From contig NZ_LMUK01000041.1 in NCBI RefSeq assembly GCF_009766005.1, positions 140,544 to 204,543 of the forward strand: 64,000 nucleotides of DNA. Reading direction: 5' to 3'. The notes beneath the pieces were generated by a model. The model did not search any database. It saw nothing but the letters and a program-made list of their open reading frames with translations, and was not told the DNA's origin. Source of the DNA: Bradyrhizobium sp. S69. GTDB lineage: Bacteria > Pseudomonadota > Alphaproteobacteria > Rhizobiales > Xanthobacteraceae. The stretch's first letter is position 1, and each line of letters starts with the position of its first letter. This document shows positions 18,427 through 41,032 of this stretch, piece after piece. A program made the translations under genes and the position numbers.

Positions 18427-18481
18427 GAGCACGTGACTTTTAATCATGGAGTGGTGGGTTCGAGTCCCACCGCGCTCACCA
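18427..18481 (+). repeat. tRNA-Lys 3' fragment, island attachment site (left copy)
   Basis: Sequence from the D-arm end through the anticodon arm (ACTTTTAATC; anticodon TTT), variable loop, T arm (GTGGGTTCGAGTCCCAC) and the 3' acceptor strand CGCGCTC-ACCA. The 5' acceptor half (GAGCGCG and D arm) is absent, so this is not a functional tRNA gene but the duplicated 3' end expected at an attachment site. An equivalent 55-bp copy is at 38375-38429 with two mismatches. Both are followed by related genes. Confidence 0.85.
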
Positions 18482-18656
18482 AAAACCCCACTACCGCAAT
18501 GGGTTCTTTCATCCACCGAAGTGCCAGCCGAGTTGTACGCAACTTTAGATACGGAATAGTCAGCAACGCGTTAAAACCGCCCTCCAGGCGCCAATTGCTG
18601 CCCTTCTCGCTGATCGCCCCTTGACCAGCCCCGCCAACACGCCCACCCCATGGGCC

Positions 18657-28051: not shown

Positions 28052-28150
28052 CATGACTCGAGTATGGACTGCTTCGGCAATCCCGGCATGTTCAATTTTG
28101 CTCACACTGGCAAATAAAGGCCACCTCAGTTGGCGGCCTCTTTCATTCAA

Positions 28151-28576
28151 TCATCTATCATCATCCGGATGCACCCACTTGTAAGGTGCGATCTCGCGCT
28201 GTTGCGTGAGCTTGATCATATGGACGCGTGGCGAATAGCGCGGTGTCCGGCATGACCTGCATTTCAGCGCCGCCTCAAGTTTCCAGATCGGCGTATCGCG
28301 CGGCCTGCGGACGTGTTCAAGCGGGATGCTGGCCTCGGTTTCACAGCGATGGCATTTGACTTGGAGCCAGCCCTAGCCGCCATTGAGGCATTGCGCGATC
28401 GTTGGCGATGGTTGCGCCGGTCCGCCATGGGCCTCCATCTGGATCGACCATAGCTCGGCCGCTGCTCGGTCGGCTTCACGGATGGCCTTTTGCGCGGCTT
28501 CACGGGCACCATCGGCGCGTATCTTCGCCCCGATGATCCGGCCGCCGTAGATGACTTCTCGCGATTTCGAACTCAT
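28151..28576 (-). pseudogene. Cys-containing island protein with an internal TAG
   Basis: A single frame of ~141 codons from ATG 28576 (MSSKSREVIYGGRIIGAKIR) to TGA 28151-28153, broken only by TAG at 28373-28375 between AQCLNGG and GWLQVKCHRCETEAS. The second half has CHRC and CRSC (ALKCRSCRTPRYSPRVHMIK) and ends EIAPYKWVHPDDDR. Apart from that codon everything is open, so a single base change (TAT/TAC to TAG is likely, as Tyr or Trp would fit) inactivated it. A short remnant of the same gene lies at 39063-39152. Confidence 0.75.
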
Positions 28577-28679
28577 GGCCGCCATTACAGCGACCTTGGC
28601 GCGGCTGTGCAATGCCACTAGGATTTGAGGCCCGGAACGAGCTTGAGGCCATACAGGTCGGTCAAAGGAACACCGAGAC

Positions 28680-28870
28680 GTGCAATACACCTTTGAGGAA
28701 GATGGCCTTGGCCGCTGGCAATGGGCCGTGGTTTTGGGCAGTCCACCAACAATCAAATCCGGCATACCGTGACAAAGGGCGCCGCGATCCTCAAGGTCTG
28801 GACCGCGATCGATCGGGCGCTCGATTCGTACAAGCTCAGACTAGTGCAATCCGAACGGCCCAAGACCTGA
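28680..28870 (+). pseudogene. small protein, frameshifted
   Basis: VQYTFEEDGLGRWQWAVVLG then SPPTIKSG in one frame and TVTKGAAILKVWTAIDRALD then SYKLRLVQSERPKT and TGA in the next. Joined, they give a ~65-residue peptide with a D-G-x-G-R-W start and an A-I-D-R-A-L-D helix. The shift lies near 28760. No known function. Confidence 0.55.
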
Positions 28871-28895
28871 TTTTAGAGAAAGAAACTCGCAAAGC

Positions 28896-29370
28896 ATGTC
28901 CGATACCCAAATTGATTTCAGTGCTCCCGCAATCCTCAGAAAATGGCCGTCAGTCAACAAAGAACGCGTTAGCGCCTCGCTCGGGGCGCGTCCGTTCAAC
29001 GGCTTTGCGGAATATGCACCAGAGACCAATCCGGAGACTAAGAAAAAAGACATCGTCTGGTTTGCCCTGAACGACGATCGGCCGCTGACGGCCTTCGCCG
29101 GCATCTGGACCGAGTTCAAGGGTGACCGGGGGGTCCAAGCCGGTCCCCGGCCCTCACCTGGTCTACGGTTTCCTGACCACATCGCCGAATGAAGTGGTCG
29201 CGCCGATCCACGAAAAGGCCATGCCGGTTATCCTCACCACCGACGAGGAACGGGACATTTGGATGCGCTCGCCGTGGGACGAGGCCAAGGCTTTACAGCG
29301 ACCGTTGCCGGATGATGCGGTGAAAATTGTAGCGCGGGGCGTCGATAAAGAAGATGAAGTCGCCACATGA
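28896..29370 (+). pseudogene. SOS response-associated peptidase (SRAP/HMCES-like), degenerate
   Basis: From about 28980 the frame reads [49 protein letters not shown], then shifts after a six-G run (29128-29133) to [60 protein letters not shown]. These are the SRAP domain's second half, including the conserved H-x-(R/K)-M-P-V-I-L motif. The N-terminal part with the catalytic Cys2 (MCGR) is absent; other sequence precedes 28980. SRAP enzymes cap abasic sites in single-stranded DNA, and this copy cannot. Confidence 0.8.
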
Positions 29371-34646: not shown

Positions 34647-35065
34647 CGGAAACCTCCCTTTTTGATAGCCAGCCCGAACAACGACTGCGGAAATTTCCTG
34701 TTCCTCAACTCAATGGTGTGTCGAGAAAGCTAAGGCGCGGTTAGACCGTGTGGCCGGAATCCACGTGCTTCGGCTGCTTCTTTTCGCGCTGCGGCGTCAT
34801 TTTTGCGGGATCGTCTTTTCCAAGCACGCGCCGGGGCCCGAATTGCTCACGTTGAACATCGCAGGAATAACGCCCGCAACGACCATCGCTGGTGACTGTT
34901 CCATGGCCGCGATTGAATGCGGGCTCAACCGAATGTCCCCTGTGCGCCATAAGCGGGCGTTAACGACCAGTCTACGAGCAACCTGATGTTAACAAGTGGC
35001 TCAGCTCGGCTACTTGGCGTACACAAAGCGGGCTTTCCCCCTCGGCTCCGTAACATCACCGGCTC
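34647..35065. other. stretch without a confident gene
   Basis: The minus-strand frame 34741-34950 ends GKDDPAKMTPQREKKQPKHV-DSGHTV, which has a coding look, but its first half does not. It may be the remnant of another secreted peptide. Nothing else identified. Confidence 0.3.
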
Positions 35066-36095: not shown

Positions 36096-37697
36096 CTATC
36101 GAGCCTCGAGCACGACAGCTTCGTTCGACCGTAACAGGAAGGCGACGGTTTCCACAGGCGCAGCGTCCTCGGTCGTGGACAGCAGCAACCGGCTGCCATG
36201 CGCCCAGTCCGGCAACTCGAGCCGGTGCTGTCGCTTCCCGAAGTTGAGCGCCACAATCAGCCGCTCTGAGCCGTGCCGGCGTGCGTAAATCAGTATCTCG
36301 TCTTCCGCTTTCAACAGGAGGAAGTCACCGATCGACAGTGCCGGCCAATCTCGCCTAAGCGCCAGCAAACGGCGATAGAGCATCAGGATCGATCGAGGTT
36401 CTTCCGTCATACGCATCACATTGCGCGTCCGCCAGTCGTCATTAAGCGGCAGCCATGGCTTGGCCCGAGTGAAGCCAGCATTATCGCTGTCATCCCACGG
36501 CATCGGCGTTCGCACGGGGTCGCGGCCCAGCGCCAGGCCGGGCTGACGCAACTCGTGCGGATCTTGCACCTGCGACGGTTCGATCGCGACATCGCTCAGG
36601 CCCAGTTCGTCGCCGTAATAGAGCGTGGGCGTGCCGCGGAGCGTCAGCAACAACACCGCCGCAACGCGGGCCTGGGCCTGTCCGCGCTTGGCCGCAACGC
36701 GCGGCCGGTCATGGTTGCCGAGCACCCAGTTGGGCCCACCGCCCGGCGGCAGCGCGGCCTCATAGCCGGTGATGACCGCTGCCAGCGAACGCGCCCGCCA
36801 CGGTGTATCGATGAGCTGGAAATTGAACGGCAGATGCATCTCGGGGCGTTCGCCGCCGTAATAGTGCATCAGCCGGTCGACCGGCAGATAAATTTCGCCG
36901 ATCAGAACCCGCTCACCGTGACCCCTGGCGCCATAGCTATCGGCGATTTCGCGCATCTCGGCGGCGATCAGATGCACCTCGGGCTGGTCGGTCGAATGGA
37001 GTTGAAGCAGGCGGTGCATGTCGCCCATCCCGGGCCGATAGTTCGGGTTCGGTGGATTGTCCGGAAAATCCGCAGCCTTCAGCAGATGCCACAGCACGTC
37101 GATGCGGAAGCCATCCACGCCGCGGTCGAACCAGAAACGTAACACGTCGTACATTGCCGTTTGCACGCCCGGATGACGCCAGTTGAGGTCCGGCTGCTGC
37201 TTCAAGAATGCGTGATAATAATATTGTCCGGTGACTTCATCCCATTCCCATGCTGAACCGCCGAAATCGCTGATCCAGTTATTGGGCGGTCCGCCGTCAG
37301 CCGCAGGGTCGTGCCAGATGTACCAGTCTCTCTTCTGATTTTCTCGCGAGGCGCAGCTCTCAACGAACCATGGATGCTGGTCGGAACTGTGGTTGGGCAC
37401 GAAGTCGAGCAGAACCTTTAGACCCCGCCGATGGGCTTGCCCAAGCAGGTCGTCGAAGTCAGCCAGCGTACCGAAACGGGGATCGACGTCGCAATAGTCG
37501 GATATGTCATAGCCGAAGTCGACCATCGGCGACGAGTAAATCGGACAGATCCAGATGGCGCCGACACCAAGGCCGGCAAGATAATCGAGCCGCCGCTCTA
37601 TTCCTTTGAGGTCGCCAATGCCGTCGTCGCCAGTGTCCTGAAATGAGCGCGGATAGATTTGATAGATCGCGCTCGTCTGCCACCAAAGCGAAGTCAT
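36096..37697 (-). CDS. GH13 alpha-glucosidase (oligo-1,6-/alpha-1,4-glucosidase type)
   Basis: 533 residues: WWQTSAIYQIYPRSFQDTGD at the start, region I LLDFVPNHSS, region II GFRIDVLWHL with the nucleophile Asp, region III LIGEIYLP with the acid/base Glu, region IV WVLGNHDRPR with the transition-state Asp, and the QPDLNWRHP segment typical of oligo-1,6-glucosidase-like members of subfamilies 17/23/30. Cytoplasmic: no signal peptide. Full length. Hydrolyses or transfers alpha-linked glucose from short oligosaccharides. Operonic with the GT4 gene; both lie within the tRNA-bounded segment. Confidence 0.95.
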   Translation of the reverse strand: MTSLWWQTSAIYQIYPRSFQDTGDDGIGDLKGIERRLDYLAGLGVGAIWICPIYSSPMVDFGYDISDYCDVDPRFGTLADFDDLLGQAHRRGLKVLLDFVPNHSSDQHPWFVESCASRENQKRDWYIWHDPAADGGPPNNWISDFGGSAWEWDEVTGQYYYHAFLKQQPDLNWRHPGVQTAMYDVLRFWFDRGVDGFRIDVLWHLLKAADFPDNPPNPNYRPGMGDMHRLLQLHSTDQPEVHLIAAEMREIADSYGARGHGERVLIGEIYLPVDRLMHYYGGERPEMHLPFNFQLIDTPWRARSLAAVITGYEAALPPGGGPNWVLGNHDRPRVAAKRGQAQARVAAVLLLTLRGTPTLYYGDELGLSDVAIEPSQVQDPHELRQPGLALGRDPVRTPMPWDDSDNAGFTRAKPWLPLNDDWRTRNVMRMTEEPRSILMLYRRLLALRRDWPALSIGDFLLLKAEDEILIYARRHGSERLIVALNFGKRQHRLELPDWAHGSRLLLSTTEDAAPVETVAFLLRSNEAVVLEAR

Positions 37698-38273: not shown

Positions 38274-38384
38274 ATGAACGACCGCTTCGCGCCAACAGCG
38301 GCCGTTGCCGACGAACAATCTAACCTTAAGGCGGTCTATTTTGTAACAGCCACCGGACGGCGAATCCGGGATCCGAGCACGTGA
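38274..38384 (+). CDS. possible short peptide running into the attachment site
   Basis: MNDRFAPTAAVADEQSNLKA then VYFVTATGRRIRDPST, with the last codons inside the tRNA fragment. The word CGCTTCGCGCCAACAGCGGC also appears (as CGGTTCGCGCCAGCAGCGGT) before the left fragment at 18393-18413, so the DNA on this side of both attachment copies is related. As a gene it is doubtful. Confidence 0.3.
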   Translation: MNDRFAPTAAVADEQSNLKAVYFVTATGRRIRDPST

Positions 38385-38429
38385 CTTTTAATCATGGGGT
38401 CGTGGGTTCGAGTCCCACCGCGCTCACCA
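38375..38429 (+). repeat. tRNA-Lys 3' fragment, island attachment site (right copy)
   Basis: Anticodon arm with TTT anticodon, T arm GTGGGTTCGAGTCCCAC and the CGCGCTCACCA 3' end, differing from the copy at 18427-18481 at two positions (ATGGGGTC against ATGGAGTG). The 5' half of a tRNA is again absent. The two copies are 19,948 bases apart in direct orientation, the arrangement left by integrase-mediated insertion of one or more elements. Confidence 0.85.
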
Positions 38430-38625
38430 AAAAACTCACAACCGCGCCGGTTTTTTTAATCAATCAACGTTTGAATTGGTACTCGCTCAACCTGAGGTGG
38501 GAATTAGTCTGCGATCTGAAAAAACAGGTGCTGACTAGCCAGCAAGGTGGAAGTGGCTGTGCGCCGGCCACCAGAATCAGCGCCTGCCCTTGACGGCCGG
38601 CCCACATCAGCCAAACCCGGCGTTC

Positions 38626-39062: not shown

Positions 39063-39152
39063 CCTGGCCTCGGTTTCACGCGATGGCATCTGACGTGTAG
39101 CCAGCCATAGCCGCCGTTGAGGCATTGCGCGCTCGTTGGCAACGGTGCGCCG
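39063..39152 (-). pseudogene. remnant of the island protein at 28151
   Basis: On the minus strand ~90 bases closely match the centre of the 28151-28576 gene (the part around AQCLNGGYGWL). Here the codon that is TAG at 28373 appears as TAT (Tyr), which supports the idea that the 28 kb copy was inactivated by a point change. Confidence 0.6.
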
Positions 39153-39160
39153 AGAAGCTG

Positions 39161-39310
39161 TTAGCGCTTCGATTTCTTCTTTGCCTTCTTGGCTTTTTTC
39201 GCCTTCTTCGGCATCATTTTCTTGACGGCCTTCTTCGCTTTTTTAGCCAGAGATTTTGCGGCCTTAACGACGCGTTTCTTAACTGACGTCTTCTTTGATT
39301 TCTTAGCCAT
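39161..39310 (-). CDS. 49-residue histone-H1-like Lys-rich protein
   Basis: From ATG 39310: MAKKSKKTSVKKRVVKAAKS, LAKKAKKAVKKMMPKKAKKA, KKAKKKSKR. Almost entirely Lys, Ala, Val and Ser with KKA/KKS repeats, as in bacterial H1-like proteins (AlgP/Hc1 C-terminal type). Probably binds DNA or polyphosphate non-specifically. It follows the larger H1-like gene after 10 bases on the same strand, so the two are likely an operon. Confidence 0.75.
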   Translation of the reverse strand: MAKKSKKTSVKKRVVKAAKSLAKKAKKAVKKMMPKKAKKAKKAKKKSKR

Positions 39311-39320
39311 GTCGATTCCT

Positions 39321-39812
39321 TCAGTGTTTGGATTTCTTGGATTTCTTAGACTTCTTCTTTTTTACCGTCTTTTTGGCAGACGATTTCTTCGCCGCTTTTT
39401 TCGCCTTTTTGGCCGTTTTCTTCACGGCTTTCTTGGCGGCTTTCTTTGCAGTTTTCTTCGGGGCCTTGGCAGCTTTCGCAACCGCTTTAGCGGCTCGCTT
39501 AACGGGCTTCGGGGTGCGACTAACGACCGCCTTCTTCGCGCGCTTGGCAACCGCTTTTACAGCGGTCTTGGCGAGTTCGCCCGCCGCGTCTGCGACCACG
39601 TCGGTCATCTGATCGACTAGCGGTTTATCTTTTTCGTCGTCCATGATCGGTTCTTCCTTCGCAGGTTGAGGAACTGTGGCGAGCGGCGTCAAGAGAGGGT
39701 CCGGATAGTCGAGCGGGACGCCAGTTATGAGCTTCGCCGCATCAATCGCGATGCTTGCCAACGTCGTCACTAGATTGGGGTTCTTTCCCTCATCCTTCTC
39801 GTCAGGTTCCAT
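39321..39812 (-). CDS. histone-H1-like protein with acidic N-terminal part
   Basis: 163 residues. The first ~75 (MEPDEKDEGKNPNLVTTLAS ... IMDDEKDKPLVDQMTDVVAD) are acidic to neutral and look folded or amphipathic; the last ~80 are KKA/KKS repeats (KAAKAPKKTAKKAAKKAVKK, SAKKTVKKKKSKKSKKSKH). The basic tail resembles eukaryotic H1 and bacterial AlgP-type proteins that compact DNA. The acidic head may be a regulatory or membrane-proximal part. An internal ATG starting MDDEKDKPLVDQ is an alternative start. Paired with the 49-residue basic protein. Confidence 0.8.
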   Translation of the reverse strand: MEPDEKDEGKNPNLVTTLASIAIDAAKLITGVPLDYPDPLLTPLATVPQPAKEEPIMDDEKDKPLVDQMTDVVADAAGELAKTAVKAVAKRAKKAVVSRTPKPVKRAAKAVAKAAKAPKKTAKKAAKKAVKKTAKKAKKAAKKSSAKKTVKKKKSKKSKKSKH

Positions 39813-40116
39813 TAATCGGCATACTCCGCGATTGAGCGTAAACGATTCGCATTCGGACCCTGATGTGCGAAACGCGCTTATGTTGCCGTACAGTGCGCTT
39901 ATACACGAATAGAGGATCGTTAGAACGCTGGCCCGCGCGAACGGAGTTGCAAAGCATAACTCGCCCCCTGTTCGGTCGCAGTATCATAATATTGCTAATC
40001 TGCACGAACGAGAGGGCGGATTACGCTAACGCTAATCCGCCCTACGGCTTGTCATCAGACGCGCACTCGCGCGACCCGGTGGCGGATGATGACGGCTCGT
40101 TCTGTTCGTTCCGAAC
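39813..40116. other. intergenic region with a palindromic element
   Basis: Contains the near-perfect inverted repeat GGGCGGATTACG-CTAA-CGCTAATCCGCCC at about 40015-40043, placed between convergent-side ends; it is a dispersed repeat or terminator for the enoyl-CoA hydratase gene. No gene. Confidence 0.55.
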
Positions 40117-40887
40117 TCACCGCTTCCGGTTGACAAAACCCTGCATCAGCCGCTGCGGCTCGCCGCCGATGAACGACTGCCCGAACACGCCGATACTGAG
40201 ATCGACGGATTCCTTCAGCGGCAGTTCCTCCCATTGCCGCAGCAGGGCCTTTTGCGCGCGCAAGGCGCCGGGGCCGCATTCCAGCAGCATCGCGATGGTG
40301 CGCTCGACCGCGGCATCGAGGCCGCCCTGCGGCGCCATCACGTCGATCAGGCCCCAGGCCAGCGCGGTTGGGGCATCGATGTTTTCGGCCGTCATCAACA
40401 GCCAGCGCGCGCGGCCCCAACCGATCAGCCGCGGCAACAGCGCGGCATGAATCACCGAGGGGATGCCGACCCTCACTTCCGGCATGCCGAATTTGGCGTC
40501 GTGGGCGGCGACCCGGAAATCGCAGGCGGCTGCGACCTCAAGACCGCCGCCGAGACACCAGCCCGGCATCCGCGCGATCACCGGGCCCGGAAACGCGCGC
40601 ACGGCTTCGCAGAGGTCGCGCAGACCGGTGATGAATTTCTCCGCCGATTTCTGGTCGAGGGCCGCCATTTCCTTGATGTCGGCGCCGCCGATCATGCTCT
40701 TTTCGCTTTGGCCCGCCAGCACCAGCACGCGAATGTCCTCGTCCTTTGCCAGCGTTTCCAGCCCTTCGCGGACGGCGTTGATGACCGGCGTCGAGAGGAT
40801 GTTGAGCGAGCCGGCATTGCTGATCGTCAGGCGGACGACGCCGCGCGGGTCGCGATCGACGCCGCAATGAGGGTTGAGCATTTCCAT
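40117..40887 (-). CDS. enoyl-CoA hydratase/isomerase family protein
   Basis: 256 residues from ATG 40887 (MEMLNPHCGVDRDPRGVVRL). Crotonase fold with the oxyanion-hole segment EKSMIGGADIKEM and both catalytic glutamates: GWCLGGGLEVAAACDF and FGMPEVRVGIPSV. So it can act as a hydratase, unlike the island protein at 25809. Divergent from the PaaI-type thioesterase across a 145-base AT-rich gap that probably carries both promoters. Likely in fatty acid or amino-acid acyl-CoA breakdown. Confidence 0.9.
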   Translation of the reverse strand: MEMLNPHCGVDRDPRGVVRLTISNAGSLNILSTPVINAVREGLETLAKDEDIRVLVLAGQSEKSMIGGADIKEMAALDQKSAEKFITGLRDLCEAVRAFPGPVIARMPGWCLGGGLEVAAACDFRVAAHDAKFGMPEVRVGIPSVIHAALLPRLIGWGRARWLLMTAENIDAPTALAWGLIDVMAPQGGLDAAVERTIAMLLECGPGALRAQKALLRQWEELPLKESVDLSIGVFGQSFIGGEPQRLMQGFVNRKR

Positions 40888-41032
40888 GGCAGATTCCAGG
40901 CACAATGAGTTGGATCGCGCCACTTCCCGGACAAAGCGTCGCCTTGTCAAGGGTCGCCAACACCGTCACGTCCGTTGCGGACCGGCGATCGCTTCATTAA
41001 TATGATGGACATAATTTAATGGAGTAGCGCTC

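Follow-up and report, generated by a model that had tools for sequence, protein, structure and literature searches.

What are two short, lysine-rich reading frames doing in tandem at the edge of a genomic island in Bradyrhizobium sp. S69? We analyzed a window of 64,000 nucleotides of this genome (the whole stretch of DNA considered here), in which an initial annotation, made from the letters themselves, had described a large and a small histone-H1-like protein, the larger with an acidic N-terminus, lying immediately beside an island attachment site and perhaps silencing or packaging the AT-richer island DNA. The two frames are present exactly as described. Both lie on the minus strand: a large ORF of 163 codons counted from its first ATG (39321..39812) is followed after a gap of 10 nt by a small one of 49 codons (39161..39310).

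The composition of both products agrees with the H1-like description. In the large protein, residues 1-56 carry a net charge of -6, residues 57-75 a net charge of -5 and residues 109-163 a net charge of +28; this tail has no acidic residue and consists of 28 Lys and 14 Ala among 55 residues, which places the protein in the bacterial H1-like compositional class, defined by a Lys/Ala-rich tail with strong positive charge. The small protein, which contains the motif AVKKMMPKK, has a net charge of +26, and 24 of its 49 residues are Lys. Such frames are rare in this genome. Counting ATG-started ORFs of at least 40 aa that hold a 40-residue stretch with at least 16 Lys, we found three in 565,021 bases of own-genome DNA, namely the pair and one family paralogue; in this DNA, contig ends interrupt the second copy of the pair.

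The junction between the two genes is compact. The stop codon of the large gene overlaps an AAGGA Shine-Dalgarno sequence of the small gene (39311..39323, minus strand; TGAAGGAATCGACATG), and the same kind of overlap occurs in four of six readable pairs: the window and the loci L064, L055 and L065, where TGAAGGAG resembles the window sequence. In the remaining two, the genes are 2 nt apart (L052) or 80 nt apart (L063, in which the tail of the large protein is altered). The best reading of this arrangement is that the large and small H1-like genes form a translationally coupled accessory pair.

The coupling of a large and a small gene turned out to be recurrent across Bradyrhizobium genomes. 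A profile search with the small protein located nine places in 6 of 265 genus genomes, and seven of these lie directly behind a large gene: the window, a second copy in the same genome (copy B), one place each in G179, G181 and G012, and two in G186. Copy B is a putative pair reconstructed across a contig break, with its large part at the start of contig C45 and its small part at the end of contig C59. The two places that have no large gene upstream are a remnant on contig C50 of the same genome, which has no ATG, and one in G198. We call the large gene the long type; it turned up in 17 of 265 genus genomes, seven of them through weak or partial matches only. Of 22 long-type places, we read 15, including the window (L053, L054 and L056-L060 were left out as weak, partial or short-type-like); a small partner is present in 6 of the 15 and absent from 9. 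The long-type family, as defined in this analysis for Bradyrhizobium, shares the core MDx...KP...Q-TD...AAG-LA...VK followed by a Lys tail, and the window protein fits it, with core identities of 64-71% to five further members and an E-value of 4.4e-28 against a long-type profile that itself includes the window protein. Order-wide, family matches occur in 12 of 397 genomes and 2 of 141 genera, and a scan of genome contigs added one relative, in B. retamae; the records L020 and G119:C165 were treated as one. We found no relatives of the large protein in plasmids and phages, and none in viral contigs.

Where translation of the large gene begins bears directly on the acidic head. In all 14 other long-type genes, which come from 9 genomes and were read residue by residue (L044-L048, L050-L052, L055, L061-L065), a Met (MDT/MDD) stands at the position of Met57 of the window protein. 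It is the first in-frame ATG in 9 of the 14; in the other five (L045, L046, L051, L052, L063), an upstream in-frame ATG adds an extension of unrelated sequence. In the window, a Shine-Dalgarno-like AAGGA lies 10 nt upstream of the Met57 codon. Because a Met is conserved at this place in 14 of 14 genes and is here preceded by its own ribosome-binding site, the main product of the large gene is likely the 107-aa protein that starts at Met57 (39321..39644, minus strand), with an acidic N-terminus, a helix and a KKA/KKS tail, strongly basic overall at net +32. The 56 codons of the longer head (39645..39812, minus strand) are of uncertain translation and may be absent from the main product. When residues 1-56 were searched by tblastn among 175 loci, matches came from own-genome loci only, and in a comparison of the full large protein with 41 genomes, no other genome aligned to residues 1-19. 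The two own copies of the head differ at 3 positions in 144 nt, two of them nonsynonymous, and divergence between the copies jumps immediately upstream of the first ATG. Residues 57-75 of the conserved form are acidic, as is the head before them, which was found in this genome only.

Both genes are under purifying selection and are maintained as proteins. By a Nei-Gojobori script, dN/dS in six close comparisons of the large gene is 0.00-0.14 over the first 60 codons and 0.10-0.38 over the whole gene, from which we take the tail to be under looser constraint. The value for L047 against L062 is about 0.06; in three further large-gene comparisons, dS was saturated or nearly so. For the small gene, three close comparisons (L064, L055, L065) gave 0.19-0.23, and the window gene against L055 gave a dN of 0.076 with a near-saturated dS of 2.4.

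A shorter relative of the large protein exists in the core genome. This short type (MDDxKP..., 92-100 aa in those read) has the same plan as the window protein and 41-55% identity to it over the N-terminal core, and it was detected at E up to 0.01 in 73 of 117 sampled genus genomes, a count into which a few weak long-type matches also enter. Unlike the accessory pair, it has a GC3 of 0.77-0.87 (called genes) and a syntenic locus marked by photolyase and peroxiredoxin genes. Among seven short-type loci of 11-12 kb, that of S69 included, a 1-Cys peroxiredoxin gene is present in all seven and a whole or partial photolyase gene in five, directly beside the H1 gene; where all are present, the order is H1, photolyase, peroxiredoxin. 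The core-type gene of S69 itself (contig C21, L076:5327-7040) adjoins the photolyase gene, with the peroxiredoxin gene near, and its locus is conserved in other Bradyrhizobium. The GC content of the surroundings is 0.592-0.638 at the seven short-type loci versus 0.551-0.609 at each of the 14 distinct loci with a long-type gene in other genomes (15 rows, one record being represented twice). Most simply, these genes belong to one H1-like family that is confined to the lineage and exists in a core and an accessory form, the latter having gained a coupled mini-H1 in some genomes.

We then place the window pair relative to the core chromosome. Immediately to its right lies a core enoyl-CoA hydratase gene (ECH; 40117..40911, minus strand), with matches at E up to 1e-60 in 262 of the 265 genomes of the genus. 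We fetched 17 relatives, picked from the best ECH matches and from genomes with a long-type gene. In all 17, synteny with the window extends over ECH and a TetR gene close by, and ECH is followed by a block that matches contig C59 of S69; the MFS gene of this block lies 1.4-5.5 kb from ECH in 17 of 17, and its thiolase gene 0.1-4.2 kb from ECH in 13 of 17. A Lys-rich ORF was found at the core site in none of these relatives. In S69 the two core blocks are parted: the window pair (copy A) lies at a distance of 0.3 kb from ECH, and on C59 the thiolase and copy B are separated by 3.5 kb. Measured against the ancestral order, both copies point the same way. Since all 17 relatives join ECH to the other core block without a Lys-rich ORF, we place the pair, on synteny, within inserted foreign DNA and close to both core edges. 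The tie between pair and island drawn by the initial annotation therefore stands, the pair being missing from the same site in every relative that we compared.

The attachment site fared differently. An att-like 56-bp repeat corresponding to the 3' half of tRNA-Lys(TTT) lies on the plus strand at 38375..38430. This fragment is internal to the foreign DNA, and ARAGORN found no tRNA at the core site in any of the 17 relatives. The core edge is instead to the right of the pair: homology to copy B ends at 39921 and DNA synteny with the relatives starts at 40069-40135, leaving a foreign/core junction at 39922..40068. Synteny with the 17 relatives thus begins at about 40.07 kb, beyond the pair, which does not lie in core DNA beside the att site of a tRNA-borne island. 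A second copy of the tRNA half, likewise within foreign DNA, occurs on the same strand at 18427..18482, and the two direct repeats bracket about 20 kb; a further fragment lies on contig C60 and the intact gene on contig C15. The repeats at 18427 and 38375, together with the C60 fragment and the intact C15 gene, suggest that several insertions may have used the same att core.

Other repeats surround the pair. The remnant of a repeated sequence (39064..39152, plus strand) ends just before the small gene. Further copies lie on contig C59 and, in both cases without the pair, at 28329-28419 and on contig C60. The repeated sequence as a whole (window 28117-28993 and 39064-39152, the end of L028, and L032) is truncated at the pair, and our guess is that it represents a small Zn-ribbon-like gene. 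An 18-bp stretch of the large gene recurs on contig C45 where the right-hand homologous flank begins, and a low-GC stretch of this contig gave weak scattered matches only. In genome G015, the counterpart of the left block of contig C48 (107-112 kb) lies at 6.84 Mb, that of ECH at 1.87 Mb and that of the C45 core at 0.21 Mb. Assuming a circular chromosome in G015, the core blocks flanking the foreign DNA on C48 would thus be separated there by about 2.9 Mb, which is due either to a rearrangement located at the pair or to a misassembly within its repeated part.

The surroundings of the long-type genes are rich in stress-type promoter motifs. We searched for GGAAC-N16/17-CGTT, which we take to be the EcfG-type (general stress) promoter consensus. 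The first 40 kb of the window hold six strict motifs, one at 34680..34704 on the minus strand and others beginning at 1206, 10147, 12765 and 27065 (+) and at 34902 (-); none was found at 40-64 kb. In 14 long-type loci, with the own copies kept apart, there are 24 strict motifs in 166,575 bp (11 of 14 loci), 22 of them at N16 spacing, versus 0 in 227,517 bp of 17 core loci, an enrichment that was noticed afterwards and is exploratory. Reversed and permuted control motifs numbered 4-6 in the long-type loci and 3-4 in the core loci. The enrichment is not general to low-GC DNA, and several stretches of S69 itself count against it, with few motifs or none: 3 in 100 kb of low-GC C45 (15-115 kb), 1 in C59 60-78 kb, and none in C48 122-140 kb or in C45 1-15 kb beside copy B. 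Own core DNA has 4 in 300 kb.

Neighboring genes were compared between 17 long-type loci, three of which are own-genome stretches (window 26-40 kb, the end of C59, and C45 1-15 kb), and 32 controls; nine gene clusters occurred in at least three long-type loci once Lys-rich ORFs were dropped. DUF892 genes are present in 5 of 17 long-type loci versus 1 of 32 controls; for genes of an ATP-dependent DNA ligase, the counts are 4 of 17 versus 0 of 32. Both were picked post hoc from exploratory comparisons uncorrected for multiple testing, with Pfam run on representatives. Some loci in the motif and neighbor tests come from related genomes or from one genome. Eight further loci of the S69 island had DUF892 once and the ligase not at all. 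In L082, two EcfG-type motifs precede DUF892-like genes, one of which was checked by Pfam. By its six motifs, the island in the window resembles accessory DNA of the general stress response.

EcfG control of the pair itself is a separate matter, and we rejected it as unsupported: no strict motif, as we take the consensus to be, lies within 400 nt of either own copy. A motif does start 54 nt before the long-type gene in L081 and 163 nt before it in L077, so that 2 of 14 long-type genes have one within 400 nt versus 1.1 expected from local density; the figure for short-type rows is 0 of 28.

Family models and structure prediction say little about the proteins, and the pair is unnamed in the libraries that we searched. 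No Pfam or NCBIfam family scored above its cut-off, and nothing in PHROGs fell below an E-value of 0.6. The Pfam models for the linker-histone globular domain and for chlamydial Hc had no match at E up to 1 to the pair or to five relatives, and no sequence relative of the large protein was found in the PDB at E up to 0.01. Two matches were rejected as low-complexity: SseC (Pfam E 0.0011 and 0.0025, below its cut-off) and the adenylate kinase PRK13808 (E 1.5e-05; 24.6 bits against a cut-off of 426). A search of the open-access literature found no paper on this H1-like family. AlphaFold2 modeled the 107-aa form, with low confidence, as two long helices and an unstructured end (mean pLDDT 64, pTM 0.29), and the small protein as two helices interrupted at the MMP motif (mean pLDDT 81.6); we give these structures little weight because Lys/Ala helices can be over-predicted. 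The helix of the small protein has a hydrophobic moment of 0.604 (p 0.0004, 5,000 shuffles), and the moment is high in all four small proteins examined (the window protein and 3 of 3 relatives) as well as in the one short type tested. In the large protein it is not significant in three of three segments (p 0.07, 0.18 and 0.60), and the tail gave p 0.02.

What, then, might the pair do? It probably binds DNA or another polyanion under stress, as far as sequence can indicate. Its composition and setting point further, to a DNA-binding, stress-linked compactor or protector of the nucleoid that is accessory and coupled, a reading to which we give an even chance. Both proteins would bind DNA non-specifically through their Lys clusters; the large one would use its N-terminal helix to bridge or oligomerize, and the small one, whose 49 aa form a basic amphipathic helix with a KK tail, would act as a stoichiometric mini-H1. 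In stressed or stationary-phase cells, the two would compact the nucleoid or protect it, and the accessory form would travel on stress-type islands. DNA binding, compaction, stress timing and complex formation are all parts that we infer. To our knowledge, bacterial H1-like proteins have mostly been described as single core genes. A selected, coupled pair on stress-type accessory DNA would let one ask whether nucleoid-packaging proteins transfer with rhizobial stress-survival islands. Among known proteins, chlamydial Hc2 is described, in excerpts of its source, as a DNA-binding protein with a variable number of Lys-rich repeats (PMC2848022). The window pair resembles Hc1/Hc2 as Lys-rich H1-like protein, but it matches no Pfam model for them, belongs to a different lineage and consists of tandem genes on accessory DNA.

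The main rival, which we consider unlikely, is that the pair organizes storage granules in the manner of AlgP and PhaF, the Lys-rich tail tethering polyphosphate or PHB granules to the nucleoid while the N-terminal helix contacts the granule. According to excerpts of the source, AlgP and PhaF share KPAA-type H1-like tails and have granule roles, the Lys/Ala-rich disordered tail is said to bind DNA, and AlgP has, like the large protein, a helical N-terminal part followed by such a tail (PMC9239181). The matching plan of helix and Lys/Ala tail speaks for this rival. However, the tail here is KKA/KKS rather than KPAA, with 1 Pro in the last 55 residues, and the N-terminal part is much shorter than the 124 aa of AlgP. 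No phasin or AlgP model appeared among the Pfam and NCBIfam matches, nor any PHB or polyphosphate protein among the few neighbors put to Pfam, and the AlgP/PhaF model, as the same excerpts describe it, has no counterpart of the coupled 49-aa partner (PMC9239181).

Xenogeneic silencing, in which the pair would coat and repress the AT-richer island DNA, was the proposal of the initial annotation, and it now strikes us as improbable. The low-GC accessory setting of the long-type genes (14 of 14 distinct loci) and the position of the own copies near both core junctions of the foreign DNA would suit it. Against this, we found no sign of AT-selective binding or of local action, and the short paralogue, a neighbor of core genes, was found in many of the sampled genomes (the 73 of 117 above, weak long-type matches included). 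MucR, moreover, is already reported in excerpts of its source as a xenogeneic silencer in alpha-proteobacteria (PMC8857273); it would be a functional analogue of the pair if the pair silenced foreign DNA, but it is a zinc-finger protein, and no zinc-finger model matches the pair. We dropped island silencing as the leading idea because no AT or local bias was found and because the core paralogue exists.

An extension of the nucleoid-compactor reading would make the pair a horizontally moving two-component chromatin module: the two proteins would form a stoichiometric complex in which the acidic N-terminus controls the small helix, the module would be installed with stress islands and reshape the nucleoid under stress, and its duplicated copies would act as recombination sites that rearrange the chromosome. 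We consider this full version improbable.

It is very unlikely that the two genes lack a function and are passengers decaying within the repeat-rich DNA of the island. Repeats and truncated genes form a mosaic at this locus, and the C50 remnant without ATG and the altered tail of the L063 large gene look like decay, but both genes have low dN/dS across genomes and their tandem order recurs. Hardly more than a slight chance attaches to the small protein being a cationic amphipathic membrane-active peptide with the large protein as antidote or carrier, for which the high hydrophobic moment of the small helix in the window and in 3 of 3 relatives, the acidic N-terminus of the large protein and the coupled translation could be cited, but which sits poorly with a large protein that is strongly basic from Met57 on and with the 9 of 15 long-type places that have no small partner.

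Two minor observations concern neighboring frames. In L045 and L047, a different Lys-rich ORF of 59 aa (MAKKSKRNDSNVPMTGRQITNAMAKK...) lies 57 nt downstream of the long-type gene. Within the island of the window, an alpha-amylase-family enzyme (Pfam PF00128) is encoded at 36096-37697, and a similar-looking ORF stands behind an EcfG-type motif in L080.
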